Source: Planctomycetia bacterium (GTDB lineage: Bacteria; Planctomycetota; Phycisphaerae; Phycisphaerales; SM1A02). Taken from it: DNA of 34,125 nt. The position numbers and the translations under genes were made by a program. Location of the stretch: NCBI GenBank assembly GCA_005792145.1, contig SXSS01000103.1, positions 1 through 34,125 of the forward strand, read 5' to 3'. Shown here in pieces: positions 4,506 through 32,637 of this stretch. Numbering within the stretch: position 1 is the stretch's first letter; the number at the start of each line of letters is the position of its first letter. Below the pieces are notes generated by a model, which saw only the letters and a program-made list of their open reading frames with translations, was not told where the DNA came from and did no database searches.

Positions 4506-4999
4506 ATTGCGATCATTGCGATAAGCCCGCGGTCGTGCACGAAATCGTCATCAAAGGCGGCGTTTCGAAAGAAGTCCACTTGTGCTCGGAACATGCCATT
4601 GCTGCGGGATATCCACTGCCAGTCGAACAACCCATCGCCGACATTTTTCCAAAGCTTGGCTCTGTTGCGAAAGTAGAAGCCGCCAAAAGCAAGGAACGAT
4701 CTGCAAAGTGCAGCGCATGCGGTTTGACTTTCACAGTCTTTCGGAAGTCCGCGACGCTGGGATGTCCCGCGTGCTATGACGCGTTTATGCCGATGATCGA
4801 AAAAGTTATTGAGAGTGCGCAAGATGGTGCGACGCATCATTTGGGAAGAAGCCCCATCGGAGGAGCGGAAATCGAACGCGTGCAGAACTTGCGCGTGAAG
4901 TTGATGCACGATTTGGAAGCTGCTGTTGCTGCTGAACAATACGAGCGCGCCGCGAAATTGCGAGACGAGCTGAAAGCATTGGATTCCCAATCGCCATGA
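4502..4999 (+). CDS. mcsA: McsA-like protein: CxxC zinc-binding motifs plus UvrB/UvrC motif
   Basis: CDHC..C, CSAC..CPAC pairs and C-terminal AAVAAEQYERAAKLRDELKAL; ATGA overlaps with kdsA and mcsB. Confidence 0.85.
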   Translation: MNCDHCDKPAVVHEIVIKGGVSKEVHLCSEHAIAAGYPLPVEQPIADIFPKLGSVAKVEAAKSKERSAKCSACGLTFTVFRKSATLGCPACYDAFMPMIEKVIESAQDGATHHLGRSPIGGAEIERVQNLRVKLMHDLEAAVAAEQYERAAKLRDELKALDSQSP

Positions 5000-12423: not shown

Positions 12424-12972
12424 TCACTTTGCGTTTCTGCTTTTCAAGATTTCGTTGTTGCGTGGCAGAATCAATTTCAGTTTGCACGCTCGCAGAATTC
12501 GGCGTGGGCTGTCATTGCCTTTCGAAAACGCTTCAAGAAAATTCTGTTGCGCACGAGGTTCCCAAAGTGCGATCATTGGTTCAATTTCATTTTCTCGTTC
12601 GTTGAAGAATGCGATTGCTTCAATATCTGATTGGCGTGCGTCGACCAAAGATTGAATATCTGCAGATTCAAGCAGTGGATAATCGCAACCAACAACCAAC
12701 CACGCACATTGACCTGAAGCGGAGAAGGCCGCATGCAAGCCACTTGCAGGTCCGTGTCCGTCGATGAGATCGACCAACCCAAAATCGCCAAGTTGCCAGT
12801 GCGTTTTTTGCTCCGGCGTGCACGACCAATAGACTTTGGCGCAAAACGGGCGCAAAAGATCAGCAACTTCTTGCCACTGAGGATGAGTTGAATATGTGAT
12901 TTGGGCTTTGTCTTTGCCCATTCGCGAACTTTTGCCGCCGGTCAGAATCAATCCGCAAATTTCAGCGGTCAC
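12424..12972 (-). CDS. mobA: Molybdenum cofactor guanylyltransferase-like NTP transferase
   Basis: GLILTGGKSSRMGKDKA, LIDGHGPASGLHAAF, WLVVGCDYPLL; GTG start at 12972 overlaps the upstream stop. Confidence 0.88.
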   Translation of the reverse strand: MTAEICGLILTGGKSSRMGKDKAQITYSTHPQWQEVADLLRPFCAKVYWSCTPEQKTHWQLGDFGLVDLIDGHGPASGLHAAFSASGQCAWLVVGCDYPLLESADIQSLVDARQSDIEAIAFFNERENEIEPMIALWEPRAQQNFLEAFSKGNDSPRRILRACKLKLILPRNNEILKSRNAK

Positions 12973-15262: not shown

Positions 15263-16203
15263 TGCGAACAAACTTTCTGCGTCGATGGCGCAGTCTTGAT
15301 CTGTGGAGAATTCACTCGCCACTCTCCGTGGTAGATATTGAATCGACCATCGCGCACGAATCCGACAAGCGTGATGTTGAATCGCTTTGCAAGTTCGACA
15401 GCGAGGCTTGATGGCGCACCAACCGCGACAATCATTGGGATGCCAGCAACAAGTGCTTTTTGAACGAGTTCGAAACTCGCTCGACCGCTCAAGAAGAGAA
15501 GGCAATTCGAAAGCGGCGTCTTGCCTGAATTGAATTGAGCGCCAAGAAGTTTATCGACGGCGTTATGCCTGCCAACATCTTCGCGAACTTCCAGCAATTC
15601 GCCCTTTGCTGTGAAGAGCGCCGCGCCGTGCAGGCCGCCTGTCTGATCGAAAACTGATTGGTGCGCCCGAACCTGTCCCTGCAGGGCGGAAATTTCCGTC
15701 GCCGCGATTTGGAAACCTTCGCTGGCGATTTGTCGCAGCCCTGGAACTTCGAGCGCATCCAGAGATGCCTTGCCGCAGACTCCGCAACTTGATGTGGAAT
15801 AGAAGTGCCGCTCCAACTTTGGCCAATTCACGCTGGCATTTGGAGCCAATCGCACCTTCACGGTGTTGGGAGTTTGTCCCGCGCCAGTCTTTGGTCCGCA
15901 TCCAATGATTTCGATGACATCAGATGGAGATCGCAAAATTCCTTCTGTGAATAAAAAACCTGCCGCCAATTCCTCGTCGTGACCAGGCGTGCGCATGGTG
16001 ATCGAAACACTTTTGCTTTTCTTTTCTTCGCCTTCAAAAAACTCCACTCGGATTTCCAGCGGCTCTTCGATCGCCAAACGATCTGCCAAGGGTTGCGTTC
16101 CAGCATCAGAAACTCGCGTCACTTGCATCTCGACACTCTTCGCTATCACCGATGCGGTTGTCTTGGCAGAAAAGACAGGCAATTTCGCATTGGGCGTTTG
16201 CAT
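15259..16203 (-). CDS. fdhD: Formate dehydrogenase accessory sulfurtransferase FdhD
   Basis: RTPGHDEELAAGFLFTEGI, SSCGVCGKASLDAL, GRHNAVDKLLGA, SGRASFELVQKA. Confidence 0.95.
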   Translation of the reverse strand: MQTPNAKLPVFSAKTTASVIAKSVEMQVTRVSDAGTQPLADRLAIEEPLEIRVEFFEGEEKKSKSVSITMRTPGHDEELAAGFLFTEGILRSPSDVIEIIGCGPKTGAGQTPNTVKVRLAPNASVNWPKLERHFYSTSSCGVCGKASLDALEVPGLRQIASEGFQIAATEISALQGQVRAHQSVFDQTGGLHGAALFTAKGELLEVREDVGRHNAVDKLLGAQFNSGKTPLSNCLLFLSGRASFELVQKALVAGIPMIVAVGAPSSLAVELAKRFNITLVGFVRDGRFNIYHGEWRVNSPQIKTAPSTQKVCSQ

Positions 16204-16887: not shown

Positions 16888-17013
16888 ATTTGAAGTGTAA
16901 CAGTGTGGCTTCGCAGAAACTTTACTTCATCCGATCTGCTTGCTGCGATGCGTATCATCGAGCTGCGTATTTCCACTCAATCTCCCCTCCCGAATCAATC
17001 ACTCGCACTCTCA

Positions 17014-18297
17014 ATGACAACGCAAACTCCACATTCAGTTCTTTGCGAGATTTCATCGCCACAAGCGGCAATCGATGCGGTCTGCGCACGCGTCATCTCT
17101 GTGCCAACGGAAACCATCGCACTTGCAAACTCCTGTGGCCGCGTGCTGGCGAAAACACTTTTTGCCGACCGCGATAGCCCCGCGCTCGATTTGAGTTCGA
17201 TGGATGGATTTGCCATAAAAATTTCTGACCTCGCCATCATCTCAAGCGCAACAGGGTTGCCAGTCGCAACGACTTCAACACAGGGGGATCATGAGGCGCG
17301 AATCGGTCACTCCCCTATTGAAATGCCCGTCGCACATGCCGTCCGTATTGTGACCGGCGCGCCGATTCCTCTTGGATCGGACGCTGTTGTTCGTCATGAA
17401 GATGTATCGCGAGTTGGAGATCGCGTGCGATTGGCGATTGATCCCGCTTCGATCAAGAATGGCGCGAACATTCGACGACAGGGAGAGAACGCGAAGAGTG
17501 GCGCGCAAATCGCGCCAGCAGGCTTGATGATTTCTGCCGCAACAATTGGAGCTCTTGCTTCATTTGGCGTTTCGCAAATTCAAGTGCATCGACGAGTGCG
17601 GGTTGCAATCGTGATCACAGGCGACGAACTTGTCTCCATCGACGGCAATGTGCAACCGTGGCAAGTTCGTGACAGCAACGGACCCGTGCTTCAGGCACTG
17701 CTCGGTACGCGAGCGTGGATAGAAATTATTTCTTGCGCCCGTGCAGTTGACGATGTGGATTCATTGACCGCGACTCTTGCGCTAGCGATGAAATCTTCTG
17801 ACGCAGTGATCTTGACTGGCGGTGTGTCGATGGGACACCGCGACTTTGTTCCTCAAGTTGTGGGAAAACTTGGCGCAGAAACTATTTTTCACAAATTACC
17901 CCAGCGTCCAGGTCGTCCAATGATGGCGGCAGTACGACCCGCAACTGCATCGAATGCTCCTTGCCTGATACTTGGCCTTCCCGGAAATCCAATTTCTGTG
18001 ATGACCACTGCTCGCCGACTTGGCATTCCAATGTTGGGTGCAATTGCAGGATTATCGCGGCTCGCTCTTGCACCTGCCAAACGCGTTCTTGCCAGCGACG
18101 ATCATTCCACGCTTGGGATGTGGTGGTTTCGACTTGTCGGCGAGCGTCTTGGCGCTGATTGTTGTAGCGAGCTGTATTTGCTCGGGGGAAAAAGTTCTGG
18201 CGATGTCGCGACTGCCGCAACAAGCGTGGGCTTTGTCGAAATCGCGCCAGGCAAATCAACCAATGGCACTCAAGACTTTTATGCTTGGGCTGAGTGA
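17014..18297 (+). CDS. moeA: Molybdopterin molybdotransferase MoeA
   Basis: SPALDLSSMDGFAIK, VRIVTGAPIPLGSDAVVRHED, TGGVSMGHRDFV, LGLPGNPIS; start MTTQTPHSV. Confidence 0.94.
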   Translation: MTTQTPHSVLCEISSPQAAIDAVCARVISVPTETIALANSCGRVLAKTLFADRDSPALDLSSMDGFAIKISDLAIISSATGLPVATTSTQGDHEARIGHSPIEMPVAHAVRIVTGAPIPLGSDAVVRHEDVSRVGDRVRLAIDPASIKNGANIRRQGENAKSGAQIAPAGLMISAATIGALASFGVSQIQVHRRVRVAIVITGDELVSIDGNVQPWQVRDSNGPVLQALLGTRAWIEIISCARAVDDVDSLTATLALAMKSSDAVILTGGVSMGHRDFVPQVVGKLGAETIFHKLPQRPGRPMMAAVRPATASNAPCLILGLPGNPISVMTTARRLGIPMLGAIAGLSRLALAPAKRVLASDDHSTLGMWWFRLVGERLGADCCSELYLLGGKSSGDVATAATSVGFVEIAPGKSTNGTQDFYAWAE

Positions 18298-18334: not shown

Positions 18335-18892
18335 ATGGCAAAGAAGAAATCCCCCTCGAAAAAAACTTCCCAGATCGGCAAGGGCGCTGCGCGCTTGACG
18401 CATATCGACGCGAAGGGCCGCGCCGCGATGGTGGATGTTGGTGCGAAGGAAGTCACATCTCGTCGCGCAGTTGCGGAAGCGCGAGTGAATATTTCCGCGG
18501 AACTCGCCAAACGCATCGCACAGAATTCGATCTCGAAGGGAAATGTTCTTGATGTTGCACGACTCGCTGGCATTCAAGCCGCGAAGCGAACCGACGAGCT
18601 CATTCCACTTTGTCATTCGTTGCCACTTGATTCGATCAATGTTTGCGTCGAACTTCGCCGCGGCCATGTGTATGTCTGGGCCGAAGCGAAAGTGACCGCG
18701 AAGACTGGCGTCGAAATGGAAGCGCTGCTTGCTGTTGCCGTCGCAGCGTTGACGGTGATTGATATGGGAAAATCCATTGATCGTTCGATGACCATCGAAG
18801 GAATGCGCATGCTTGAAAAGGAAGGCGGGCGAAGTGGGCATTTTCGCGCGGTCACAGCAGCAAAGCCTTCACGAAAGCGAGTCGGGATATGA
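18335..18892 (+). CDS. moaC: Cyclic pyranopterin monophosphate synthase MoaC
   Basis: MVDVGAKEVTSRRAVAEA, GNVLDVARLAGIQAAKRTDELIPLCHSLPLDS, GVEMEALLAVAVAALTVIDMGK. Confidence 0.96.
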   Translation: MAKKKSPSKKTSQIGKGAARLTHIDAKGRAAMVDVGAKEVTSRRAVAEARVNISAELAKRIAQNSISKGNVLDVARLAGIQAAKRTDELIPLCHSLPLDSINVCVELRRGHVYVWAEAKVTAKTGVEMEALLAVAVAALTVIDMGKSIDRSMTIEGMRMLEKEGGRSGHFRAVTAAKPSRKRVGI

Positions 18893-19467
18893 CTGACGCT
18901 ATCCGTGCCGTCATATTGACTGTCAGCGATCGTTGCTCTCGTGGCGATGCTGTCGACACATCGGGACCAACGCTGGCATCACTTGCAATCAAACACTTGC
19001 GCGCCGAAATCGTTCACACGGATTGCTTACCCGACGATCTTTCCTCCCTTGCCAAGTTTTTTGTCAATTGGTCACAACCTGCGCATTCAGTTGACCTGAT
19101 ACTGAGTACAGGTGGCACTGGCTTGGCACCGCGCGACATCACTCCCGAAGCCCTTCGTACTGTGATGCACCGCGAACATGCTGGCTTGATGGATCTTTCG
19201 CGATTGCGCTGCTTGCAGAAGACGCCACGGACTTTTCTTTCGCGCGGAATTGCTGCGACAATTCACCAAACTCTTGTCATTACGCTTCCAGGCTCTCCAC
19301 GAGGTTGCAGCGAGATGTTCGAAGCAATCGCGGACATTCTTCCACACGCGATTGAAACTCTTCGCGGCGATGTCAAAGATGATGGTCGTCCAGAGTTGGA
19401 TGCAACTTCGCAAGATGGTTCAGGTTCGGGTTCAGGATTGGGGCGAGTCATCCATCACAAGGATTGA
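18889..19467 (+). CDS. mogA: Molybdopterin adenylyltransferase-type protein (MogA/MoaB)
   Basis: AVILTVSDRCSRGDAVDTSGP, LILSTGGTGLAPRDITPEA, ITLPGSPRGCSEMFEAI; ATGA overlap with moaC. Confidence 0.92.
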   Translation: MTDAIRAVILTVSDRCSRGDAVDTSGPTLASLAIKHLRAEIVHTDCLPDDLSSLAKFFVNWSQPAHSVDLILSTGGTGLAPRDITPEALRTVMHREHAGLMDLSRLRCLQKTPRTFLSRGIAATIHQTLVITLPGSPRGCSEMFEAIADILPHAIETLRGDVKDDGRPELDATSQDGSGSGSGLGRVIHHKD

Positions 19468-19512: not shown

Positions 19513-20424
19513 TCACTTCGCGGACACAAACTGAAACTCGATCTGCTTCGCAAAGCGTGAGTGCCACCATGTCTGAATGTGTGCGGGCTTCTTCGCGGGC
19601 AATTCAACAATTCGCGCTGGCATCATCACTGGCAGTGGATCAACATCGAATGGATATGGATCGAGTTCAATTCTTCGATCACCTCGCGGCGTCACCGTGA
19701 TTGTGCAGCGATCCGACCAACTTCCGCGCGGAACCTCGTGGAGTTCATACGGATCTTCACCAAGACCGTTCGAAGCTCCAGACTTCGCAGGGATCAGCGC
19801 AGAACAAAGCGCAAGCGAAATGCCATCACACAACTGAATAAGTCTTTGCAGTGGGGCGAGACTTGCGGGCTCGATCCAGGATGCCCCTTCAGGATCTGCG
19901 CGGAGTTCTGCGATCCAACCAAGTTGCATCTTCTTGCACTCCGCCATAAAAGCAAGTGGCGCCTCATTACTTCCAGCATAAAGTTTTTCAGGCGCGCCCT
20001 TCCAGAAGAGAGGATGATTGAATGCAGGTTCTGGATTTTGTATTGCACGCGCGGCATAGAGCCAATATGCATGAGAACTGATGAGAAGATTTACCATCGG
20101 GCGGTTCTGAAATCTTGTAAGTGCACTTCGCCATCGATCCATTCCTGCTTGCTGACTCTGCAATACCTCGCCAAGTCCTGCAGAAAATCCATCTGCTACA
20201 GAAACATCTGGAATCGCTTCCCACTCCCACCAACCATTGTCATGCTCAGCGATAGCAAGAATTGCTTCTGCACGCAGTCGCTCTGGATCTTTGACTGACG
20301 CCGAAAAATATCCCGGACAAGCGAAGAGTCTATTGCCCCAATGCGCCGCGATATATCCAGCGATCTGACTGTGATCAGGCTGGGTGACCATCCAAATTTT
20401 TCCATCTTGAATTGTCTTGAGCAT
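19513..20424 (-). CDS. DUF3891-family protein
   Basis: QPDHSQIAGYIAAHWGN, ILAIAEHDNGWWEWE, LISSHAYWLY, QLCDGISLALC; last gene of the xdh-containing minus-strand run. Confidence 0.75.
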   Translation of the reverse strand: MLKTIQDGKIWMVTQPDHSQIAGYIAAHWGNRLFACPGYFSASVKDPERLRAEAILAIAEHDNGWWEWEAIPDVSVADGFSAGLGEVLQSQQAGMDRWRSALTRFQNRPMVNLLISSHAYWLYAARAIQNPEPAFNHPLFWKGAPEKLYAGSNEAPLAFMAECKKMQLGWIAELRADPEGASWIEPASLAPLQRLIQLCDGISLALCSALIPAKSGASNGLGEDPYELHEVPRGSWSDRCTITVTPRGDRRIELDPYPFDVDPLPVMMPARIVELPAKKPAHIQTWWHSRFAKQIEFQFVSAK

Positions 20425-20451: not shown

Positions 20452-21306
20452 TCACACAACGCATTTTCTGATCACGTCGCGTTCCTGCAGGAGTTGCGCA
20501 GCGATGCTCACTGCAATTTCTGGCGGGGAATTTGATCCAATTGGCAGACCGATCGGGCAGTGAATCCGACCAACCATCGCCTCATCAAATCCCTCTTTGA
20601 GAAGCGTGCTTCGCAGCGTTCGCGACTTTGGCTCACTGCCGATGACACCGATGAATGCGGCATCACCTCGTCGAAGAATTTCGCGCACAATCGGCAGGTC
20701 GGTTGCGTGACCTTGCGACATACAAAGATAAAATGTTCCTGCAGGCAACTTCGAAACAAACTCCGCTGGTTCTGCAACAAGCATCTTTCGCAAATTAGGC
20801 TGCGAGATAATTTTCGTCAGCCATTCCTCGCGTGGATCAATGCAGGTCAAACTGCAATCAAATGTGCATAGAAGCGAAACCGTCGCTTGCGCGACATGAC
20901 CCGCACCGAAGAGGGCGATGTTCCAGTTTGTCAGCGCAGAAATTTCATAAAACAAAGTTGCGGCACCGCCACAAACCATATTCAAGTCGCGAAGAAGTTC
21001 GTATCGAACAATTTCTGATTGAATCGCAGCAGCAGGAATTGCTCCTTGAACTTGGCGTGCAATCATCGCTTGCGAATGGGTGATTGCGCGCGCTTCCAGA
21101 CGACCTCCGCCGACAGTTCCCCATACCACTCCAGCTGCGGTGATGATTGCTTTTGCCCCAATGTCTTGCGGAACATGACCTTCAGGCTCGACAAGTGTGA
21201 CGGTGACAAAGACAACTCCTCGCTCTGCAAGCGCGCTTGCACGCTGGAGATATTCGCGCATCGAGCAACTCATCGTGTTCGATCCTTTTTCATGCGCCAC
21301 TTCCAT
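20452..21306 (-). CDS. xdhC: XdhC-type xanthine dehydrogenase accessory protein
   Basis: GSNTMSCSMREYLQRASALAERG, GTVGGGRLEARAI, WNIALFGAGHVAQATVSLL, FIGVIGSEPKSRTLRSTLL, HCPIGLPIGSNSPPEIAVSIAAQLL; start at 21306 or 21273. Confidence 0.92.
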   Translation of the reverse strand: MEVAHEKGSNTMSCSMREYLQRASALAERGVVFVTVTLVEPEGHVPQDIGAKAIITAAGVVWGTVGGGRLEARAITHSQAMIARQVQGAIPAAAIQSEIVRYELLRDLNMVCGGAATLFYEISALTNWNIALFGAGHVAQATVSLLCTFDCSLTCIDPREEWLTKIISQPNLRKMLVAEPAEFVSKLPAGTFYLCMSQGHATDLPIVREILRRGDAAFIGVIGSEPKSRTLRSTLLKEGFDEAMVGRIHCPIGLPIGSNSPPEIAVSIAAQLLQERDVIRKCVV

Positions 21307-23773
21307 TTGTATCTTGCTTATCCCAGATGACGAATGCCTCTGGAGAAAGACCACGCAAGACTCGCTCTGCCGTTGCGGGAATTGCCAGTGGCACAAGTTG
21401 CGATTCGCCTGCGACAGAATTCTTCCGCGCAGACATAACTGCGTCGCGAATCGCGGTCCACACAGAAATCGACAGGAGAAGCGGAGGTTCGCCAGAAGCT
21501 TTCGATCCTCGGATGTTCTGTGTATTGTCCTCGTTGAAAATCAAATCAGCATTGAACACGCGCGGAGTGTCTTGCACATTTGGAATCTTGTATGTGCTTG
21601 GTGAATGCGAAATCAACTTCCCGTTGTTGTCATAAACAAGGTTCTCAGTTGTGAGCCATCCCATTCCCTGAATGAATCCCCCCATCACTTGCCCCATATC
21701 AAGCGCATGATTGACTGGTCGCCCCAGATCCATCAATATGTCAACGCGGCGCACTTTCACTTCGCCAGTATCGGAGTCCAGTTCGACTTCACTTGCTGCG
21801 ACGCCTTGGGTGAAATACAAAAACGCCTTGCCCTTGCCATCCACTTTGTTAAAGCCCAGATTTGGAGTTGAGTAATAGCCATAGTCGCTGACTGAAATCC
21901 GATTGCGGTATGCCTCACGAATCAATTGCGCCAAAGCAATTGTAAAAACAGCACCTGAAGGATCTGTCACCGTGACATTCGAACCAACAAATTTCACGCG
22001 ATGTTCAGATGTGCCACTTGGACCGACAGTCTCGTCAACAATAATCTCTGGCATCGTGCCCAGCCCCGCGGTCTTGCTCGCCCACAATTCTGCGGGAATT
22101 GATCGAAGCTGAATCGCCAGCGAAGCGAGTCGACTGCAAATTGATTCACACGCATTCAAGGCCGCAGCGCCATTGATATCCGTTCCTGTCGATGCGGCGG
22201 TCGGCGATGTATTTGCATTTTTTTCAGTTGAAGTCGGCATAATCCGCACGCATGCCAGCGGCAATCCAAGTTGTTGCGCGACAATTGTTGCGATGCGCGA
22301 ATTGACTCCCTGCCCCATCTCAACAGCGCCGGTCGAGACTTGCGCCGTTCCATCGCGGTGAAGATTTACAAGTGCGTTTCCTTGATTGAGAAAACGCGTG
22401 GTGAAGGAAATGCCAAACTTGACCGCGGTCAATGAAAGACCGCGCACAAATCTGTTGTTGCCACTCGTGCAATCAGCGTTCCATGCGATGATTCCCTCAC
22501 GGCGTTTTCGGTACTCGCAGCGTTTCTCCAACGATGCGAAAAGCGAAGGCAAATGATTGCCCTCGACGCGTTGACCATAATGAGTGATGTCCTGATTTTG
22601 GTTATAGCAATTGAGCAAACGCACATCGAGCGCATCACGACCAACAATTCGAGCGATATCTTCGATGATTGACTCGATCATCGCGACACCCTTGGGACCT
22701 CCAAAGCCTCGGAACGCGGTGTGTGGGTGAAAGTTTGTGCGACACACTTGACCCCGAACGCGCATATTGGCGATCGAATATGCGTTATCGCAGTGCAAGA
22801 GAGCGCGCTCCATGATCGCAGTTGAAAGATCGGCATACGCGCCTCCATCAGAGTGCAACATTGCGTCAAGCGCGAGAATCTTTCCTTTGCCATCGAAACC
22901 ACAACGATATTCAATTTGAAATGGATTTCGCTTTCCAGTGATGATCATGTCATCGTCCTTCGAAAGCGCCAAGCGTGCAGGTCGACCGCTGCGCTTGGCG
23001 ATCAGCGCCGCGTATGCGGCGATCGGCGAAGCCTGCGACTCTTTACCGCCGAATGCGCCGCCGAGACGCTTTGCGATGCAGACCACATCGCTGTAGCGAA
23101 GTCCGCACGCTTCGGCAACAACGTGCTGCGTTTCGGTGGGATGTTGAGTCGAAGAGTGCACTTCGAATTGTCCATCCTCCTTTGGATAGACAACAACCGC
23201 TTGACTCTCAAGATAGAAATGGTCCGCACCGCCGATTTCAAGCGTGCCAGAAATCTGGTGAGGCGCGCTGGCAAGAGCGCTCTGCACATCTCCAGTTGAA
23301 ATAGTGCGCATCGAACCAATAAAACTCTTCGCCGTGATTGCCTGTGAAATCGTGCGGATATCCGGCAATTTTCCCCACTCGACGACGATAGCTGCCAAAC
23401 CCTTTGCGAGCGCTTCCTTGGTTTCTGCGCCGATCACGGCGACTACCTCGCCAACATAATGAACCTCATCCGCTGCGATGATTGGCTGATCTTGAAAAAT
23501 GCTCCCCCACATATTGTGCGCGACATCCTTTCCCGTGACGGCGCAGATGACACCAGGAATTTTCAGCGCGGGCGCAGTATCGAGGCGAACAACACGAGCA
23601 TGTGCATATGGGCTATAGACCAACCCACAGTGCAGTTCGCCTTTGAGCATCGGCCGATCATCAACATATTCTGATTTTCCTGTGACATGCGTAATCGAAG
23701 AGTCATGCGGTGGAGAACCGTGATCGCTGATCAGGGTCGACATTGGAACAGGCGTTCGTGTTTGATCAGCCAT
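21290..23773 (-). CDS. xdhB: Xanthine dehydrogenase molybdopterin-binding subunit
   Basis: VTGKSEYVDD, KRLGGAFGGKESQ, TAFRGFGGPKG, GAVEMGQGVNSRIA, KASGEPPLLL (catalytic Glu region). Confidence 0.94.
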   Translation of the reverse strand: MADQTRTPVPMSTLISDHGSPPHDSSITHVTGKSEYVDDRPMLKGELHCGLVYSPYAHARVVRLDTAPALKIPGVICAVTGKDVAHNMWGSIFQDQPIIAADEVHYVGEVVAVIGAETKEALAKGLAAIVVEWGKLPDIRTISQAITAKSFIGSMRTISTGDVQSALASAPHQISGTLEIGGADHFYLESQAVVVYPKEDGQFEVHSSTQHPTETQHVVAEACGLRYSDVVCIAKRLGGAFGGKESQASPIAAYAALIAKRSGRPARLALSKDDDMIITGKRNPFQIEYRCGFDGKGKILALDAMLHSDGGAYADLSTAIMERALLHCDNAYSIANMRVRGQVCRTNFHPHTAFRGFGGPKGVAMIESIIEDIARIVGRDALDVRLLNCYNQNQDITHYGQRVEGNHLPSLFASLEKRCEYRKRREGIIAWNADCTSGNNRFVRGLSLTAVKFGISFTTRFLNQGNALVNLHRDGTAQVSTGAVEMGQGVNSRIATIVAQQLGLPLACVRIMPTSTEKNANTSPTAASTGTDINGAAALNACESICSRLASLAIQLRSIPAELWASKTAGLGTMPEIIVDETVGPSGTSEHRVKFVGSNVTVTDPSGAVFTIALAQLIREAYRNRISVSDYGYYSTPNLGFNKVDGKGKAFLYFTQGVAASEVELDSDTGEVKVRRVDILMDLGRPVNHALDMGQVMGGFIQGMGWLTTENLVYDNNGKLISHSPSTYKIPNVQDTPRVFNADLIFNEDNTQNIRGSKASGEPPLLLSISVWTAIRDAVMSARKNSVAGESQLVPLAIPATAERVLRGLSPEAFVIWDKQDTNGSGA

Positions 23774-25250
23774 GAAGAACCTCGTTGCCAAATCTGCGAA
23801 AGAGATTTGCGGCTGCCACTCTGCGATAGGACGCGCTACCACGAACATCAGAAATCGGCTTGATAGAACCCGCGATCAACAGGGCAACTGATTCGATTCG
23901 GGCTTGATTCAATTCGCCGCAGAGCGCAAGCTCGACTTCTGGCATACGAACTGGTGTCGCAGCAACACCTCCGTATGCGATTCGTGCGCTGACAACATTT
24001 GGCGCAGCTTTTCCTTTGCCGCCTGCTCCTCTGCGTCCTTTCAAAGTGAGCGAAAATGCGCCGCTGACTGCGCTGATATCAAGATCTTTCCGCTGCGTGA
24101 CTTTGCACAGACTCATCACATCATTTGCCCCCGTGCGATCGAAGCTGATGTGGGTGATGATTTCCCCAGGCTCGAGCGAAAGCTTTTTATAGCCGACATA
24201 CAAATCGGTCATCGGGATTTTTCTCTTGCGAACCACGCCCTTCGCACCTTGCCTGCTTGCAACATGAACTTCTCCCCCAGCAATCAGAAGAAATGGCAGC
24301 GTGTCGCCAATGGGAGATGCGTTGGCGATGTTGCCCACAAGCGTCGCCACATTCTTGATCTGCGGGGATGCGAAAAGATTCAGGAATCGCGCAAACTCTG
24401 GCGCGACATCTTCGCTGACTCGCCGCACTTCGGCAAGGGTGACGCGCGATCCAAATGTGACGCCACTACGCGTCAACTTTGTTTCATACAGTTCGGGGAT
24501 CAAGTGAAGACTTATGAGTGAAGTCGGCAGAGGCTTACCCTTGTTCACATGCACACCGATATCAGTCGCGGCACCAAGCACCCGCGTCCCAGGATTGATC
24601 GAGGTAAATGTCACCGCCTCTCGCAAGGAAACAGGGGCGAAAAGTTTCGTGCCTTCATACTCGACCAACATTGACAACTTCGTCGAAGCAACAGAATCTT
24701 TGATTGATTGTGGATCGGAGTATCGACGGGCGACCGAATGCGTTTCGGTTGCCCGCACAGTGAGCGCCGCTTCAATAATCGGTGCATATCCAGTGCATCG
24801 GCAGAGATTTCCCGTGAGATAATTGGATGCTGTGCGTGCATCTGCTTGATCGTGGCGCTCCAACATTGCGCTCATCGCCATCACGAATCCTGGAGTGCAA
24901 TAACCGCACTGAGAAGCGTGGCATCTACGCATCGCTTCCTGTGCCGGTGACAAATGATCGCCGCACTGCATCCCTTCCACTGTGACGATGTGCGTTCCAT
25001 CCATTTGTGCGACGGTGGCGATACAGGAATTCATCGCCTCGAAACTCAATTGGGAGATTGGCTGCGCGCTTGGTTGACACGAAGATCGAAGCACGGTGCA
25101 TGCGCCGCAGTCGCCTTCGGCACAAACGATTTTTGTCCCACTCAGTCCAGCCTCTTTACGCAACCATTCCGCAAGCATCATCAATGCTTCCCGACCACGA
25201 ATCTCTCGGCGCACGCCATTCAGATGGATTAGTGCGAAGTCACGCATCAT
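23766..25250 (-). CDS. xdhA: Xanthine dehydrogenase small subunit ([2Fe-2S] plus FAD domains)
   Basis: CAEGDCGACTVL and CGYCTPGFVMAMSAM..NLCRCTGYAPIIEA ferredoxin motifs, then FAD-domain segment LVGNIANASPIGDTLPFLL. Confidence 0.94.
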   Translation of the reverse strand: MMRDFALIHLNGVRREIRGREALMMLAEWLRKEAGLSGTKIVCAEGDCGACTVLRSSCQPSAQPISQLSFEAMNSCIATVAQMDGTHIVTVEGMQCGDHLSPAQEAMRRCHASQCGYCTPGFVMAMSAMLERHDQADARTASNYLTGNLCRCTGYAPIIEAALTVRATETHSVARRYSDPQSIKDSVASTKLSMLVEYEGTKLFAPVSLREAVTFTSINPGTRVLGAATDIGVHVNKGKPLPTSLISLHLIPELYETKLTRSGVTFGSRVTLAEVRRVSEDVAPEFARFLNLFASPQIKNVATLVGNIANASPIGDTLPFLLIAGGEVHVASRQGAKGVVRKRKIPMTDLYVGYKKLSLEPGEIITHISFDRTGANDVMSLCKVTQRKDLDISAVSGAFSLTLKGRRGAGGKGKAAPNVVSARIAYGGVAATPVRMPEVELALCGELNQARIESVALLIAGSIKPISDVRGSASYRRVAAANLFRRFGNEVLHG

Positions 25251-25287
25251 GGCGATCGTAGCACCACGCCGTTGCAACGCACCAAAA

Positions 25288-28200
25288 TCATCCCGCGGAA
25301 AAAACTCGAACACGATTCATCCCACCATCTGGGAAAACTGTCACTCGAACTTGATCGCATGGCTCAGCGCTCTCGACGGCAAATGCGACAGCGCTTCCTG
25401 CGAACGCCTTGACATTCGTTCGTGCCACAAGTGCGATCCACTTGCCAGCGCACAATCCATCGACCGAAATCTCCTGCGGATTATTATTCACAAATCGTTT
25501 GAAATCCACGACAATTCGCTTGATCTTCGCTTTGCGACCAAGTGCGATCACCACATTTTCGCTGTGTCCCGCCACACGGCTTCGCGCAGATTCCAGACCG
25601 TCGACCATGTTCAGCGGCGGATAGGGCGAGATGACTTGTGTCGCAGGCGAATAGTGTTCGTTGGAAGCAGAGATCACTCGGCCACCGAACGCTGCGCTTG
25701 CAATATCCACTTCGCTGCCTTTATGCCTTTCAAAGTTGGCGGAGATCTCTGCCTCAGTCGCGACATACTTTGGTGTCATCGGCTTGCGAGTCTGCGAGTC
25801 AAATTCTGGGTGCTGTCGAATAGCCGGCGAAAAAAGATTTGCTTTTTCTTGAGCTGGTAATTCGACTCCATAAAGCGCCAACCGTGTCAGCCCTCCGTCT
25901 GGATACATACGCACTCGAATGCGGCGAAACTTTCCGTCGCCAGAAACGGAATGAGCGGCATGCAAAGAGTGACCATACAACTGCATCCGTGGCACGATTG
26001 TCTGCCAGCGACCCTGAATCGAATTCCATCCTTCGACCTCGAATCCTTCGGCATGATTTCCAAGATGGAATTGAGTCGAAATCACAACGCAATCTATCGC
26101 CGCTTCAGAAACCATCTCGAAGATCATCCAATCGCAACTTGCCGAATTGTGACGAACGGTTTCCCAGCTATCCATAATCTTGCCTTGTCTGCCAAAGAGT
26201 GCTGGATCGAAAACAGGAAGATTCTGCGAAAGCAAGTTTTCTGCTCGTGCGAAACGCTGATTTGAAGCAGACTCCACCCGCGCGCCAACAACAAGATTGA
26301 AATCGGCGAGAGGATCTCGCGGACCACGATCAAAGATTTCTTCAGGGAGATCCTCTTCAAATGCAGAGAAAACAAGTTCCCGATATCCCACATTCACCCT
26401 TTGTACTTGCTCAGCGCCTTCGAGCGCCCTCGCGCTTGATCTAGAAAGTTCAGTTTGAAAGCGCGAGCAATCAACGCCACGAATTGCCAGATGCCGCAAG
26501 ATAATCTGCGCAGCTTGCGAGATGAAGCGCATCCCCGCTTCTTCGCCATTGCAAAGAACGACAAATCCTTTGCCAGCATCGGGACCAGTGTGGCATTGAA
26601 TAAAAATCGAGCGGAAGCCATCATTTGATCCTTGATGGATCGACAATCGATTGGGCCCTGCTTCCGCGACAAAGATGCCAAGGCCCATCATGCATCCCAT
26701 AAAATCGCGAGCACCCTTATCGAACCCATGCAACATTCGCATCGCAGTCTCGTGCGAAATCGGCCCGCATCCACCAAGATCCTGTGCAGCGTGCGTAAGC
26801 GCGGAAAGAAATCGCAGGACATCGGCGGCGGTTGCCACCGCTCCAGCAGCAAGCGCTGGGAAAATCTTGCGTGTTCCTTCGACAGCCGAACCAGAATCCA
26901 GAAAACCACTCGCACACTCTCTGTCTGCGAGCGCAGATTCCTCGAACGAACATGAATTCATTCCAAGCTTGCGCAGAAACACAGCCATCAATGTATTGAT
27001 TGGTGCCCTTTCGATGCTCTGGATCAAATGCTGAAGCACCATAAATCCTCCGCCTGAATATTGAAACTTCGTCCCAGGCGCATTGATCGCCCTGATCGGC
27101 TTATATCCATATCGCGCGTTGCCTTCGAGCAATTCCTCAATCGGCGGCATCGCTTCATTCGCGGGGATGCCGTTGACATAGTGCGTGTTCATCGCTTGAT
27201 GCGAAATCAGATGAGCGATCGTCACTTGATCAGCCCACTCTGGATGATTCGCATCGTGTGATCGAATCCGAAAAGTCGAAGCGCTCTTGGCGAAAAGCGT
27301 ATTGACCTGCGTATGGAGCGGCGTTTGGGCTGCACGAAAATATTCCATCGCGAAGCAAGCCGCAATACTCTTGCTGAGTGATGCGATCTCGAAAAGAGTT
27401 TGGCCAGTCACAGGATGCAACGCATCTCGATTGCCGAATTGCAATTCTTGAATGTGCTTGCCATCTTCAGTCATACTGATCGAAGCACCGTGCACACCGT
27501 GTTTCGCAAGCGCCTCGGCAAGTTCCTGCTGAACAGTATCAATCGGCTGAGACTCCAACCGATTTTTGGTGATCTGCCAAAGTGCTTTGCGTGCGTTTTC
27601 GATTTCTTCGCTCTGAGTATGATTCAATCGCTCTTTCAGCGCGCCAAGAAGTTCCACTTCCGATCGCCCCTTTGCCGCGATCAAGAACTTGAAACCAAAT
27701 CGCTCTCGATAAGTCCGACCAAGGGAGAGAAGTTCTTCCCCCTGACCAACCTTGCCCGCAGATTTCTGAAACACGTCTGATTGCTCCTGTGCAGCAGTCG
27801 CATCGAGCGAACGCGCAGATTCCCCAATATCACCATGAAAACCTGCCGCTTCGTTGATCTCATCAAGCGTAAAACTTCCAACCAACTCTTGCGCCACGCG
27901 CAGATTGACCACAGAGTCGCGCGACATCTGCGCCGCGAATCTCTGGCTTGCACATACAGAAAAGAATGCGTGCAATCGAGCAACTCGCATTGGAATTTGA
28001 TACTTCCTCGGCTCGATCGATTGCGCAACAGCCCAAGGATCATCGTGGCGGCGAATGGTCTCGAGCGTAAATGGCAACATCAACTCGGTTGCAAATTCAA
28101 CTGGTGTATCGCTTGCCATCAACTGCAGCATGATGTTCATTGCGACGGGATACCACTTGCGGGTGCGATCATCCCACTTCACTTGCACGATCTTGCTGCC

Positions 28201-30096
28201 ACTCGAAAGATTCTTACGAATGAAATGTAATTCTTCGTGTGCGATGCGCACGAAATCTTCATAGTTGAATCGCCCATAATGCAGTTCGTGCCAGACTTCC
28301 CAGCGTGATCTCTCCGCCGTCGCCAAATCATCCATCACCCGCACTGGCACGCCATCAATGGTCGCGGGAAGTGCGACGCATCCATTTCCGCAGAGCCAGT
28401 CAGTCAGATATTGCAGCGACTGAAAAATGTTGTAACGAATCTCATCAGGGTGGTTGTTGGCGACCGTTGCAGATTCCCGTCCATCCGCAACCAGAATCGA
28501 CCGCGCATACAAAGGATCGTCTCGATCAAGCCCACGCACATCTTGCCCTTGGATGAAATCCAAGACTTCGCGTTGATGATCAGGTGCCAACAAAGCACAC
28601 ACCAAATCATCGAGCGGTGCGGATTCGCCATTTTTCGTGCGCTTCCATCCTTCAACAAGCGCAAGTCCAAGCCTGACAAAATCTGGATGAGCGACCCAAA
28701 ATCCATCAAGATTCCGCTTCATCTGCGTGATCACATCTTTGATGAATCCTTTGATCGCAACTTGGAACGAAGCACTCCGCATATCACCATCTGATGGAAG
28801 CACTCCATACATTCCCCCCACCTTGATGCCTCCGCGCGAACCAACAACCTCCGCAAGCAAGTCATGCGACGCCTTGATGTTGTTGATGACTATGTTCGGA
28901 TCAGCCTTGACTGGAATTCGATAGTTGCCATCATTCTTCATCAAGCGCGCGGTTGATGCGAGAAAATCGTGCCAGCCAAGCGATGCGCCTGCAAAGTATG
29001 GATGCAACTCATCCATAATCTCATTCATACGGAAGACTGCGCGCGGATTTTCTAGAACGATCATCACTCGAATCGTGCCAATCCTGTACCGCGGGTGCCG
29101 AGCGCAAATCATTCGCTCTGCGTTTTCCATCATGATGCGGATGTACGCCGCCTCTTCTTGTGTCTCCAACTTTGGAACATAAAACACAAGCGCCTGAGGA
29201 TTATTCCAATTCGCAAAGAGATGAAGCGCAAAGTCATACAAATGCAAAGGCAACGGGTTGTCGCCCAGGAAAAGAAATGGACAAGGCATCGCAAGACCCG
29301 GAAATCGCTTGATTGGCAGCGAAAGTTGCGATGACGCCAATCGATATTCCTTTCCAGTGCGCCCATCCACATATGTGATGGTCCCCTGCAAGCAGCCAGT
29401 CAGATTTTCCCCCGCCAAGATCAGGTCGCTGCGCAAAGGTGTCTTGGAATCTTCATCGTCTGCTCCCCACTTTGCGCTTGCGCTGAAGTCCTTCAGCAAC
29501 TCCGCAACAATCGCTGGCTCGCCATCAAGCTTGCGATGAAATGCATTCATTGCATTGATCGAAAGCTTCGCGTCATCCGGTGGACCAAAGAGGGTGACAT
29601 GCTCTCCACGCAAAAACTCAGGAACCAAAGCAATGGGCTGACCGCCGCCCGAGCGACAAAAGAATTCGCTCAGCGGACCAATGACCACTCTCCCCTGAGC
29701 GTCTTCTTGACCAATGACTGTGCGATAGTCGGGATCGCTATAAGCAACCTTCAGCGAAGAGTTCAGCTCGAAGCACGCTTGCGTTCGCTCGTCGATGAAT
29801 GCTCGGTCGACGACTCGTTGTTGCAACACTTGCCGCAAGTGCGTTTTCACAGATTCATAAAGTTCGCAAAGAAACTGCAGAGATTCTGGGTTTTCCAATC
29901 CCCCGCTCGCGCCAATCTGCCACATATTCGCCACGCCATCAACTGGCTTGCGCTGATCGGCAAGATGCATCAACAATTCATGTGAAATAAAATCTCGGTA
30001 TGTTGGAATCTCCGCGCCATCCATAACTCCACGTCCGATCATCGAAGCACGATACCCATGCCGCACAACTTGTCGCAGCGTTGACCCGCACGACAT
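25288..30096 (-). CDS. Four-domain fusion: malate synthase - OHCU decarboxylase - beta-lactamase-type serine hydrolase - allantoicase (1602 aa)
   Basis: Single uninterrupted ORF; each domain supported by separate motifs (see domain entries). The start may be internal (ATG at 30042 or 30024). Confidence 0.9.
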   Translation of the reverse strand: MSCGSTLRQVVRHGYRASMIGRGVMDGAEIPTYRDFISHELLMHLADQRKPVDGVANMWQIGASGGLENPESLQFLCELYESVKTHLRQVLQQRVVDRAFIDERTQACFELNSSLKVAYSDPDYRTVIGQEDAQGRVVIGPLSEFFCRSGGGQPIALVPEFLRGEHVTLFGPPDDAKLSINAMNAFHRKLDGEPAIVAELLKDFSASAKWGADDEDSKTPLRSDLILAGENLTGCLQGTITYVDGRTGKEYRLASSQLSLPIKRFPGLAMPCPFLFLGDNPLPLHLYDFALHLFANWNNPQALVFYVPKLETQEEAAYIRIMMENAERMICARHPRYRIGTIRVMIVLENPRAVFRMNEIMDELHPYFAGASLGWHDFLASTARLMKNDGNYRIPVKADPNIVINNIKASHDLLAEVVGSRGGIKVGGMYGVLPSDGDMRSASFQVAIKGFIKDVITQMKRNLDGFWVAHPDFVRLGLALVEGWKRTKNGESAPLDDLVCALLAPDHQREVLDFIQGQDVRGLDRDDPLYARSILVADGRESATVANNHPDEIRYNIFQSLQYLTDWLCGNGCVALPATIDGVPVRVMDDLATAERSRWEVWHELHYGRFNYEDFVRIAHEELHFIRKNLSSGSKIVQVKWDDRTRKWYPVAMNIMLQLMASDTPVEFATELMLPFTLETIRRHDDPWAVAQSIEPRKYQIPMRVARLHAFFSVCASQRFAAQMSRDSVVNLRVAQELVGSFTLDEINEAAGFHGDIGESARSLDATAAQEQSDVFQKSAGKVGQGEELLSLGRTYRERFGFKFLIAAKGRSEVELLGALKERLNHTQSEEIENARKALWQITKNRLESQPIDTVQQELAEALAKHGVHGASISMTEDGKHIQELQFGNRDALHPVTGQTLFEIASLSKSIAACFAMEYFRAAQTPLHTQVNTLFAKSASTFRIRSHDANHPEWADQVTIAHLISHQAMNTHYVNGIPANEAMPPIEELLEGNARYGYKPIRAINAPGTKFQYSGGGFMVLQHLIQSIERAPINTLMAVFLRKLGMNSCSFEESALADRECASGFLDSGSAVEGTRKIFPALAAGAVATAADVLRFLSALTHAAQDLGGCGPISHETAMRMLHGFDKGARDFMGCMMGLGIFVAEAGPNRLSIHQGSNDGFRSIFIQCHTGPDAGKGFVVLCNGEEAGMRFISQAAQIILRHLAIRGVDCSRFQTELSRSSARALEGAEQVQRVNVGYRELVFSAFEEDLPEEIFDRGPRDPLADFNLVVGARVESASNQRFARAENLLSQNLPVFDPALFGRQGKIMDSWETVRHNSASCDWMIFEMVSEAAIDCVVISTQFHLGNHAEGFEVEGWNSIQGRWQTIVPRMQLYGHSLHAAHSVSGDGKFRRIRVRMYPDGGLTRLALYGVELPAQEKANLFSPAIRQHPEFDSQTRKPMTPKYVATEAEISANFERHKGSEVDIASAAFGGRVISASNEHYSPATQVISPYPPLNMVDGLESARSRVAGHSENVVIALGRKAKIKRIVVDFKRFVNNNPQEISVDGLCAGKWIALVARTNVKAFAGSAVAFAVESAEPCDQVRVTVFPDGGMNRVRVFSAG
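25291..26325 (-). other. Domain 4 of fusion: allantoicase, two repeats (about aa 1258-1602)
   Basis: ARVESASNQRFARAENLL..GKIMDSWETVRHN..CDWMIFEM..STQFHLGNHAEGFEVEGW and second repeat FGGRVISASNEHYSPATQVI..MVDGLESARSR..HSENVVIALG..VVDFKRFVNNNPQEISVDG; both end in a (Y/F)PDGGxxRxRxx-type strand. Confidence 0.88.
26482..27540 (-). other. Domain 3 of fusion: class C beta-lactamase-type serine hydrolase (about aa 853-1205)
   Basis: SLSK (Ser-x-x-Lys, aa 906-909), APGTKFQYSGGGFMVLQHLIQ (Tyr motif at aa 1013), IHQGSNDGFRS (HxG at aa 1154). Confidence 0.88.
27547..27984 (-). other. Domain 2 of fusion: OHCU decarboxylase (UraD-like, about aa 705-850)
   Basis: CASQRFAAQM, FHGDIGE (candidate catalytic His), AAQEQSDVF, YRERFGFKFLIAAKGRSEVELLGALKERLNHTQSEEIENARKALWQITKNRLES. 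Confidence 0.85.
27997..30096 (-). other. Domain 1 of fusion: malate synthase A-like (about aa 1-700)
   Basis: LSINAMNAF, WGADDEDSKTPLRSDLILAGENLTGCLQGTITYVD.RTGKEYRL, YVPKLETQEEAA, VMIVLENPRAVFRMNEIMDEL, DGFWVAHPDFV, VMDDLATAERSR (compare MEDAATAEISR of malate synthases). Confidence 0.88.
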
Positions 30097-30115: not shown

Positions 30116-30466
30116 GTGACACCTCTCGCCATACTTGGACTTTCGACTCATGTCCTCAATACAGCAACTGGCGATCCTGCTGCGGATATGAAAGTGCGAT
30201 TCCAATCACTTGAAGGTGGCGCATGGTTCGATCGACACGAAACGCACACCGATGCTGACGGACGAGCGCAAGGATTTTCCAAGGGACCACTTGCCGCAGG
30301 AAATTTTCGACTCATCTTCGATGCGGGACCGTGGTTTACTCGGCGCGGCCAAGATTGTTTTTTCCCCCAAGTCACCATCGAGTTTCAAGTGACTGATCCC
30401 AAACGACACCATCATGTGCCTCTGCTGCTCAGCCCATTTGGATATTCAACCTATCGAGGCAGTTGA
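30116..30466 (+). CDS. uraH: 5-hydroxyisourate hydrolase (transthyretin-like)
   Basis: GTG start; LGLSTHVLNTATGDPAADM and C-terminal HHHVPLLLSPFGYSTYRGS. Confidence 0.95.
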   Translation: MTPLAILGLSTHVLNTATGDPAADMKVRFQSLEGGAWFDRHETHTDADGRAQGFSKGPLAAGNFRLIFDAGPWFTRRGQDCFFPQVTIEFQVTDPKRHHHVPLLLSPFGYSTYRGS

Positions 30467-30468
30467 AC

Positions 30469-31404
30469 ATGGCGATCATCCTTGGCGAAAATCGATATGG
30501 AAAAGCGGAAGTCAGAGTCTTTCGCGTCACGCGCAGTGGTGATACGCACGAAGTCCTCGACCTGAATGTGACTGTTTTATTGAGCGGCGATTTCACGGCA
30601 ACACACTTGACCGGCGATAACACGCAAGTGTTGACAACCGATGCAATGAAAAACACAGTCTTTGTTTTTTCCCACGAGTATGGCGCAATGGAACCCGAAG
30701 CATTTGGATTGTTGCTTGCAAGACATTTCGTCTCCACGCAATCGCATGTATCCAAAGCTGAAGTCCGTATCGAAAAATTTGATTGGGACCGGATTATTTC
30801 CAAAGGCAAGCCGCATCCGAGCGCGTTTCGCAAAAGTGGATCGATGACAAGAACGGCGACTGCGCTCGTCTGCCGAGATGGTGCGAAGACGCAAGATTTT
30901 ATTGTCGGTGGACTGAATGACTTGGTGATCTTGAAGACAAGCAAGAGCGAATTTCGCGGATTTCTGCGCGACAAATTTACAACACTTGCCGAAACCACCG
31001 ACCGAATCATGGCAACGGAAGTCTGCGCTCGTTGGAGGATTTCTGCTTCAGAATCATTGAGGCTTGACCACATCGACTGGGCAAAGAACTTTCTCAACAC
31101 GGTCGACACCATGCTGGGCGCATTCGCCGAACATCACAGCCATTCATTGCAGGAAACTCTTTTCTTGATGGGCGAGCGCGTTCTATCCAATCACCCTGAA
31201 ATTGCCGCCATTCGGCTCTCACTTCCAAACAAGCATCACTTTGCAGTTGACCTTTCGGCTTTCGAGCGCGAGAACCACAACGAAGTTTTCATCGCCGCAG
31301 ACAGGCCATATGGATTGATCGAGGCGGTAATCGAGCGCGATGATCCCAAGACATCATCGGCATCATCGGGGTCTGCTGTGGCGCACACTTGGCCAGCGTG
31401 GTAA
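30469..31404 (+). CDS. Urate oxidase (cofactor-independent uricase)
   Basis: GDNTQVLTTDAMKNTVFVFS, LPNKHHFAVDLSAFERENHNEVFIAADRPYGLIEAVIER; ATG at 30469 (the track uses TTG at 30463). Confidence 0.93.
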   Translation: MAIILGENRYGKAEVRVFRVTRSGDTHEVLDLNVTVLLSGDFTATHLTGDNTQVLTTDAMKNTVFVFSHEYGAMEPEAFGLLLARHFVSTQSHVSKAEVRIEKFDWDRIISKGKPHPSAFRKSGSMTRTATALVCRDGAKTQDFIVGGLNDLVILKTSKSEFRGFLRDKFTTLAETTDRIMATEVCARWRISASESLRLDHIDWAKNFLNTVDTMLGAFAEHHSHSLQETLFLMGERVLSNHPEIAAIRLSLPNKHHFAVDLSAFERENHNEVFIAADRPYGLIEAVIERDDPKTSSASSGSAVAHTWPAW

Positions 31405-31571: not shown

Positions 31572-32489
31572 TTACTCCAACACGCGAAGAGAAAGTCCGT
31601 GCGTTGCAAGCTGAGCCTTGATTTCGTCGAGGCTGGTCGAACCAAAGTTCTTCATCCCCATCAATTCGGCTTCCGTGCGACATGCGAGTTCTCCAAGCGT
31701 TCGCACTTCGAGCAACTGAACAGCCTTCTTCGCGCGGATCGTCAATTCGAGCGCGCTGATTGGCAGCTCCAACAATTCTGGTGCGACCTGCAAGCGCAAC
31801 TGATCCAAATATTCTCGGCGGTATGACTCTTCGAATCCACCTTCAAGACCTTGTCCCAAGCGCAGTCCGCGCGAATTGAGCATCGACTTGATCTCATTGA
31901 TGCTGGTTTCGCCAAAGTTCTTGAATGCCATCAGCTCCGCTTCGGTGACGCGCAAGAGATCTCCAAGCGTGCGAATTTCCACCTTTTTCAGGCAGTTTCG
32001 CGCGCGCGCTGAAAGTTCGAAGTCCGTGATCGGCGTATCGAGAATCGCATTGCGCCGCGCAGTTTGCTGTTCAGCATTCGGGTCATACGACATCGTCTTC
32101 ACAGCGCAGACATCTTTGACATACATGCGCGCATGACCATTGTTTGGATACAAAGTCAACACGCGTCGCAAGCATCGCTCCGCCCGTACGAGTTCTCCCA
32201 TGTCCTCATAAAGCACAGCAAGATTGATCATCGCATTGACTGGTGGGGTTGGGAGATAGCAGATCTCCTCGTACAAATCGATCGCCTCCTCGTCCTCTCC
32301 CATGCGATCGAGCAACTTTGCCAACGCGAAGAGCGTCGTGACCGAACGGTCAGACTCGAGAGCCTTCCTATATGCGGCAACCGCTTCATCTCGGCGACCT
32401 TCGTTCGCGTGGCGAACCGCTAGGTCGAAGTGTGGCTTGGCTGCTGTTGGATTCGCTGGATTGACATGCTTGATCGTTGCGTTACTCAT
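31572..32489 (-). CDS. TPR protein with two C-terminal RNA polymerase alpha-CTD-like domains
   Basis: TPR-like AVAAYRKALESD / EEAIDLYEEI / VRAERCLRRVLTLYP; two alpha-CTD cores: ISALELTIRAKKAVQLLEVRTLGELACRTEAELMGMKNFGSTSLDEIKAQL and ITDFELSARARNCLKKVEIRTLGDLLRVTEAELMAFKNFGETSINEIKSML. Confidence 0.88.
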   Translation of the reverse strand: MSNATIKHVNPANPTAAKPHFDLAVRHANEGRRDEAVAAYRKALESDRSVTTLFALAKLLDRMGEDEEAIDLYEEICYLPTPPVNAMINLAVLYEDMGELVRAERCLRRVLTLYPNNGHARMYVKDVCAVKTMSYDPNAEQQTARRNAILDTPITDFELSARARNCLKKVEIRTLGDLLRVTEAELMAFKNFGETSINEIKSMLNSRGLRLGQGLEGGFEESYRREYLDQLRLQVAPELLELPISALELTIRAKKAVQLLEVRTLGELACRTEAELMGMKNFGSTSLDEIKAQLATHGLSLRVLE

Positions 32490-32637
32490 TCGTATAAAAC
32501 CTCGTTGGGATAGAACTTGCGAAAACCTCTTTACCAAGAACCAAAATCTGCACCGCGCATTTTTGGGGGGGTCGAGAAGCATACCTCCAACCGCCCAAGT
32601 TCAACAAAGTTTTCCGAGACGCACAATTCGACCAAAT

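Follow-up and report, generated by a model that had tools for sequence, protein, structure and literature searches.

Enzymes acting on neighbouring ureides have been described on single chains, as in the UraD–5-hydroxyisourate (HIU) hydrolase fusion and in Dal2,3,3 (PMC3646786), and channelling has been proposed for such fusions of consecutive urate-pathway enzymes, each of which unites two activities and contains neither a malate synthase nor a serine hydrolase. Like the protein reported here (P0001), the 521-position allantoicase model PRK13797/NF010371 combines allantoicase (ALC) and OHCU decarboxylase (UraD) on one chain, and it matches three stretches of P0001, its positions 341–519 corresponding to a UraD domain. 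However, P0001 scores 151 against the cut-off of 814 for this model, and it differs in placing UraD before ALC, with a class-C beta-lactamase-fold serine hydrolase (SH) between them and a malate synthase (MS) at the N-terminus. Allantoinase has also been joined to UraD, either as PuuE–UraD (implied by the name of TIGR03212, 'uraD_N-term-dom') or as AllB–UraD (found below in genome G577), with PuuE or AllB preceding UraD, whereas the beta-lactamase-fold domain of P0001 follows it. Finally, the bifunctional isocitrate lyase–malate synthase protein known from nematodes joins malate synthase to the enzyme supplying it with glyoxylate, as P0001 would do, but from isocitrate instead of ureides. A 1553-aa open reading frame of an order-level relative (G040; L104 5839–10497, minus strand), considered as a distant relative of P0001 for its malate synthase match, proved to be a malate synthase–isocitrate lyase fusion.

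The SH domain shares its fold, SxxK motif, tyrosine and third motif with the PF00144 superfamily (class C beta-lactamase, DD-peptidase, LACTB and D-amino-acid amidase), from which it is set apart by an H-x-G third motif, an invariant H972-Y973 pair, its embedding between UraD and ALC, and its predicted substrate, allantoin. We know of no allantoinase of the class-C beta-lactamase fold. Searches of the open-access literature returned no description of a malate synthase joined to ureide enzymes, and nothing relevant on an allantoinase with a beta-lactamase fold or of serine hydrolase type, on an allantoicase with a beta-lactamase domain, or on allantoicase in Bdellovibrio. The fusion is a real, conserved and apparently undescribed architecture of known domains, one of which, SH, likely carries a function new for its fold.

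Architecture of the fusion protein

Within the window (the whole 34,125-nucleotide stretch of DNA analysed here), the initial annotation had described a stop-free frame running through four enzyme domains. Both the frame, of 1602 aa with an ATG start, and its domain content were confirmed (Table 1), although it lies on the minus strand, a point previously missed: the plus-strand reading of the same interval contains many stops. As homology starts near residues 13–30, the true start may sit downstream of 30096, for example at Met19.

Profile searches, which had been proposed together with structure prediction, placed MS, UraD, SH and ALC in this order along the chain, all four above their Pfam gathering cut-offs: MS_TIM-barrel and MS_C (PF01274 and PF20659; 71 vs 26.4 and 36 vs 23.1 bits), OHCU_decarbox (PF09349; 71.5 vs 24 bits), Beta-lactamase (PF00144; aa 856–1197, 94 vs 27 bits) and Allantoicase (PF03561), found in two stretches (177.5 vs 27 bits). 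Pieces of the protein also match solved structures of malate synthase A (3cuz), OHCU decarboxylases (3o7h, 5uou) and allantoicase (1sg3), with which both ALC repeats align. Since they fall below the NCBIfam equivalog cut-offs (198 vs 277.9 with TIGR02961 for ALC), the domains are divergent family members.

The motif residues named in the initial annotation were confirmed, those with a catalytic role being invariant in 69 of 69 aligned full-length homologues. The invariant residues of this alignment include, in MS, R264, E349, D377 and D590, which align with E. coli MS-A (3cuz) and which we take to be the conserved arginine, two metal ligands (E349, D377) and the catalytic aspartate; in UraD, H754 and E771-Q772, presumably the catalytic histidine and Glu-Gln pair; in SH, S906, K909, Y1013, H1154 and G1156, together with the lineage-specific H972-Y973. 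AlphaFold modelling gave high pLDDT values both for SH alone (pLDDT 95.8, pTM 0.94) and for UraD–SH–ALC (aa 690–1602; pLDDT 93.4, pTM 0.92), the latter model suggesting a defined mutual arrangement of the three domains.

Table 1. Position of the fusion protein, its domains and the neighbouring purine and molybdenum cofactor genes in the window
Feature	Coordinates	Strand	Evidence
MS-UraD-SH-ALC fusion protein, 1602 aa	25288..30096	-	ORF, Pfam, 69 aligned full-length homologues, dN/dS
Malate synthase module, aa 1-710 (TIM barrel 277-478, MS_C 551-670)	27967..30096	-	Pfam, 3cuz alignment
OHCU decarboxylase (UraD), aa 690-850 (Pfam 727-848), H754, E771, Q772	27547..28029	-	Pfam, 5uou/3o7h alignment
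Class-C beta-lactamase-fold SH, aa 846-1212; predicted serine allantoinase	26461..27561	-	Pfam, AlphaFold, genome content
Allantoicase, two repeats, aa 1256-1602	25291..26331	-	Pfam; yeast allantoicase 1sg3 alignment
HIU hydrolase UraH, transthyretin-like, divergent	30116..30466	+	PF00576 119 bits, ORF
Uricase (urate oxidase)	30463..31404	+	PF01014 188 bits
Xanthine dehydrogenase FeS/FAD subunit	23766..25313	-	PF00111, PF01799, PF00941, PF03450
Xanthine dehydrogenase molybdopterin subunit	21290..23848	-	PF01315, PF02738, PF20256
XdhC-type molybdenum cofactor insertion factor	20452..21396	-	PF02625, PF13478
MoaB-like	18889-19467		
MoeA	16903-18297		
MoaA	11231-12388		

Conservation and taxonomic distribution

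A few loci carry a frameshift or an in-frame stop in or near UraD or SH (L070/L167, L082 and L100), which may correspond to draft errors or to real splits and which could recall the artefact against which the initial annotation had warned, namely a chimeric assembly of separate genes. The likelihood of such a chimera is close to nil, and it is already refuted because independent homologues share one frame: the fusion is full length and in a single frame in four further same-genus genomes (48–83% identity), and a scan of species genomes yielded, among 96 matches, 80 loci with the fusion protein, 67 of them full length in one open frame. The 69 full-length homologues that were aligned, from many assemblies including long contigs, show an identical domain order in one frame, with SH domains 32–83% identical. 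In every domain dN/dS ranges from 0.02 to 0.19 between close pairs, indicating purifying selection.

The architecture was thereby found beyond the window, in two phyla. Homologues come from metagenome-assembled Planctomycetota and, more often, from Bdellovibrionota (Bacteriovoracaceae, Oligoflexia and Bdellovibrionales, with taxonomy as recorded). The carriers, lake planctomycetes and relatives of predatory bacteria, number in the dozens. In the sample of the window's own phylum, 2 of 392 genomes carried the fusion, with a score gap from 532 to 141 bits, and in Bdellovibrionota (the phylum of genome G075) the SH domain was detected in about 69 of 369 genomes, mostly inside a frame of ~1500–1650 aa. 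In a midpoint-rooted tree, the root of which serves for drawing only, planctomycete fusions formed one clade (support 100) nested among the Bdellovibrionota forms, suggesting one transfer between the two phyla, whose direction we can only infer.

A divergent malate synthase, probably separate from the glyoxylate shunt

With 135.8 bits against the 594.5 of the malate synthase A equivalog (TIGR01344), the fused MS is, from its sequence, a divergent malate synthase. Among the 50 fusion genomes searched, which are drafts with completeness known for five of them, 15 encode a second, canonical MS (244–370 bits vs 61–90 for the fused one), and full isocitrate lyase occurs in exactly these 15, the other 35 having neither. 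Isocitrate lyase matches of 45–55 bits, among them all the planctomycete ones, cover only profile positions 151–255 and were rejected as isocitrate lyases. This exact co-occurrence argues that the fused MS draws its glyoxylate from elsewhere, most simply from the same chain, and that it is probably not the enzyme of the glyoxylate shunt. The retained malate synthase catalytic residues would also fit a domain working mainly for the shunt, with an incidental attachment to ureide enzymes, but this is very improbable given that 35 of the genomes have no true isocitrate lyase, while those with one also hold a separate canonical MS that far outscores the fused copy.

Gene neighbourhood

Immediately upstream of the fusion, and transcribed divergently from it, lie the HIU hydrolase and uricase genes, which overlap by 4 bp and had been omitted from the initial annotation. 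Both xanthine dehydrogenase subunits and XdhC follow downstream on the strand of the fusion, the FeS/FAD frame overlapping its 3' end by 26 bp, with molybdenum cofactor genes further along. Genes adjoining the fusion in 81 loci include the HIU hydrolase family (57 loci), PuuD-type urate oxidase (49, in Bdellovibrionota), uricase (9) and xanthine dehydrogenase genes (23–26). Among 61 relatives, HIU hydrolase was present in all five with the fusion and in 3 of the 56 without it (Fisher p about 1e-5, for relatives that are not independent). As judged from their families, the neighbouring genes complete the upstream purine route to the fusion.

The missing allantoinase step and the serine hydrolase domain

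The purine route of the fusion loci is complete except for two steps, from allantoin to allantoate and from ureidoglycolate to glyoxylate. Profile searches that gave matches over cut-off in control genomes detected AllB, PuuE and ureidoglycolate lyase (PF04115) in none of the 50 fusion genomes. The absence of the lyase can be excused because spontaneous decay turns ureidoglycolate into glyoxylate and urea (PMC3793230). Ten high-scoring AllB-like proteins were inspected as candidate allantoinases; nine score best as dihydroorotase or dihydropyrimidinase and were discarded, and that of G104 is ambiguous. About 15 fusion genomes show no AllB-family match above about 141 bits; one distant match of the 120-bit class (G074) was inspected and scores best as a dihydroorotase, and G101 gave no match at all in the AllB-family search. 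Two of the three relatives with HIU hydrolase and without the fusion do encode AllB (457 and 485 bits); in the third, G017 (same genus, 83% complete), AllB was not found and no purine genes were recognised among the open reading frames scanned in the vicinity of its HIU hydrolase.

Compared with ureidoglycolate, allantoin is much more stable and breaks down far less readily, and the opening of its hydantoin ring is an amide hydrolysis, a chemistry of the class-C beta-lactamase fold. Because the step is missing, because SH sits between UraD and ALC in the place of an allantoinase (the domain order UraD–SH–ALC being the reaction order) and because the chemistry of its fold fits, SH is probably a non-orthologous, serine-type allantoinase, and all four domains would then be steps of one nearly continuous route. 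The initial annotation had assigned three domains to one route: this holds for MS, UraD and ALC, while SH, which it left unexplained, probably provides the missing allantoinase step.

As a member of PF00144 by score, fold, SxxK motif, tyrosine and third motif, SH belongs to neither the AllB nor the PuuE family and could therefore only be an allantoinase analogue. The roles of S906, K909, Y1013, H1154 and G1156 are presumed from known class-C families. By score, the domain is only a generic class-C hydrolase, reaching 42 of the 415 bits of the class C beta-lactamase model proper (NF033085), and by this measure is not an antibiotic-resistance beta-lactamase. Its nearest PDB folds are esterase IS11, LACTB, R61 DD-peptidase and D-amino-acid amidase, at ~20% identity. 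With such esterases and peptidases as neighbours, in a functionally very broad family, SH might be unrelated to purines, a generic esterase or amidase or even a structural spacer trapped in the fusion. We find this improbable in view of its fully invariant active-site and H972-Y973 residues, its low dN/dS (0.02–0.13) and the persistence of the SH–ALC pair where MS and UraD separate. That SH is an HIU hydrolase was set aside as a leading idea, as a separate HIU hydrolase gene adjoins most fusions. The best SH match outside the fusions in the phylum (L127, 217–2538, plus strand) is an unrelated protein in which a purple-acid-phosphatase-like metallophosphatase is joined to a PF00144 serine hydrolase.

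A lineage with the fusion split over separate proteins

In three genomes (G577, G578 and G579), which represent a single evolutionary event, the parts of the fusion are found on separate proteins. SH and ALC stay together in one protein (764 aa in G578 and 794 aa in G579; the G577 copy is truncated where its contig ends), and G577 and G578 encode a malate synthase of ~730 aa without UraD. In G577, UraD is instead fused to AllB (508 bits) and followed by HIU hydrolase; the same pair is cut by the contig end in G578 (280 bits over the last 242 positions), on a contig that also carries xanthine dehydrogenase genes. In the SH of G578 and G579, Tyr1013 is replaced by Phe, His972 by Asn or Gly, and HxG by HxA, the cut copy of G577 showing the HxG to HxA change only, and the ALC motifs are preserved.

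SH has thus decayed where a canonical allantoinase is present, whereas its active site is invariant where none was found, with G579 as an exception: its SH is altered, yet AllB and PuuE were not found, and a ureidoglycolate lyase gene lies 3 bp from its SH–ALC gene. Either AllB is missing from this draft or SH does something else, and the exception therefore keeps in play the alternative that SH hydrolyses a different ureide, most probably ureidoglycolate (or allantoate), the allantoinase step being left to an unrecognised or moonlighting cyclic amidohydrolase. The lack of PF04115 in the fusion genomes is in line with this alternative, as is the dihydropyrimidinase carried by several of them, which could moonlight as an allantoinase. 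We nevertheless hold it to be rather unlikely: ureidoglycolate decays by itself and allantoin far less readily, ~15 fusion genomes show no AllB-family match above about 141 bits, that of G074 being closest to dihydroorotase and G101 giving none, and the chain order and the AllB–UraD protein of G577 and G578 are better suited to SH as an allantoinase.

The split lineage also encodes a stand-alone, single allantoicase repeat of ~170 aa (L163 8384–8923 and L183 3071–3568, both on the plus strand), located between a malate synthase and a class-V aminotransferase whose nearest match, below cut-off, is the aspartate–glyoxylate aminotransferase BhcA. This repeat might be a ureidoglycolate-processing enzyme.

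Proposed route and implications

We consider it likely that P0001 is a single-chain assembly leading from OHCU to malate, with SH as the allantoinase. Xanthine dehydrogenase, uricase (PuuD-type urate oxidase in Bdellovibrionota) and HIU hydrolase would convert xanthine to OHCU, which the UraD domain would decarboxylate to (S)-allantoin. Ser906 of SH, aided by Lys909 and Tyr1013, would then attack the hydantoin ring carbonyl and water would release allantoate, SH in that case standing in, as a non-orthologous enzyme, for the usual metal-dependent allantoinase. ALC would split allantoate into ureidoglycolate and urea, ureidoglycolate would yield glyoxylate and urea, either unaided or on the ALC domain, and MS would condense glyoxylate with acetyl-CoA into malate, trapping the toxic aldehyde at its source. 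These activities, that of the allantoinase above all, and any channelling between them are predicted; the coupling of late ureide catabolism to malate, already put forward in the initial annotation, is backed by profile matches, catalytic residues, gene neighbourhood and conservation in two phyla.

We lean towards SH being the first allantoinase of the class-C beta-lactamase fold, a metal-free serine acyl-enzyme, within a ureide-to-malate line that bypasses the glyoxylate carboligase–glycerate route and was probably transferred between Bdellovibrionota and lake Planctomycetota. If so, a whole pathway segment would reside on one polypeptide, and the missing allantoinase would be identified in a fold never, to our knowledge, linked to this activity before. 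Bdellovibrionota, a phylum that includes predators, would gain a way to burn purines, perhaps, as a speculation, those of prey nucleic acids. A published view holds malate synthase to be unsuitable as an outlet for the glyoxylate derived from allantoin (PMC12694930); the fusion would contradict it, its carriers appearing to do otherwise than Pseudomonas and E. coli. In addition, SH–ALC proteins may be misread as beta-lactamases by annotation pipelines.

Other genes of the window and related loci

Several further genes of the window were recorded. In the protein encoded at 31572–32582 (minus strand), TPR repeats precede a pair of RNA polymerase alpha C-terminal domains (PF03118, 125 bits), and a DUF3891 protein lies just past XdhC in the same direction (19513–20424, minus strand). 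Near the MoaA, MoeA and MoaB-like genes, a molybdopterin oxidoreductase of 847 aa is encoded at 12962–15505 (minus strand), and an ATP:guanido phosphotransferase catalytic domain, arginine-kinase or McsB-like, at 4996–6063 (plus strand). Among the PuuD-type urate oxidases of the related loci, one (L083 7966–9633, plus strand) has a carboxypeptidase-regulatory-like C-terminal part and another (L163 3016–4440, minus strand) a weak haem-binding match in its C-terminal part.
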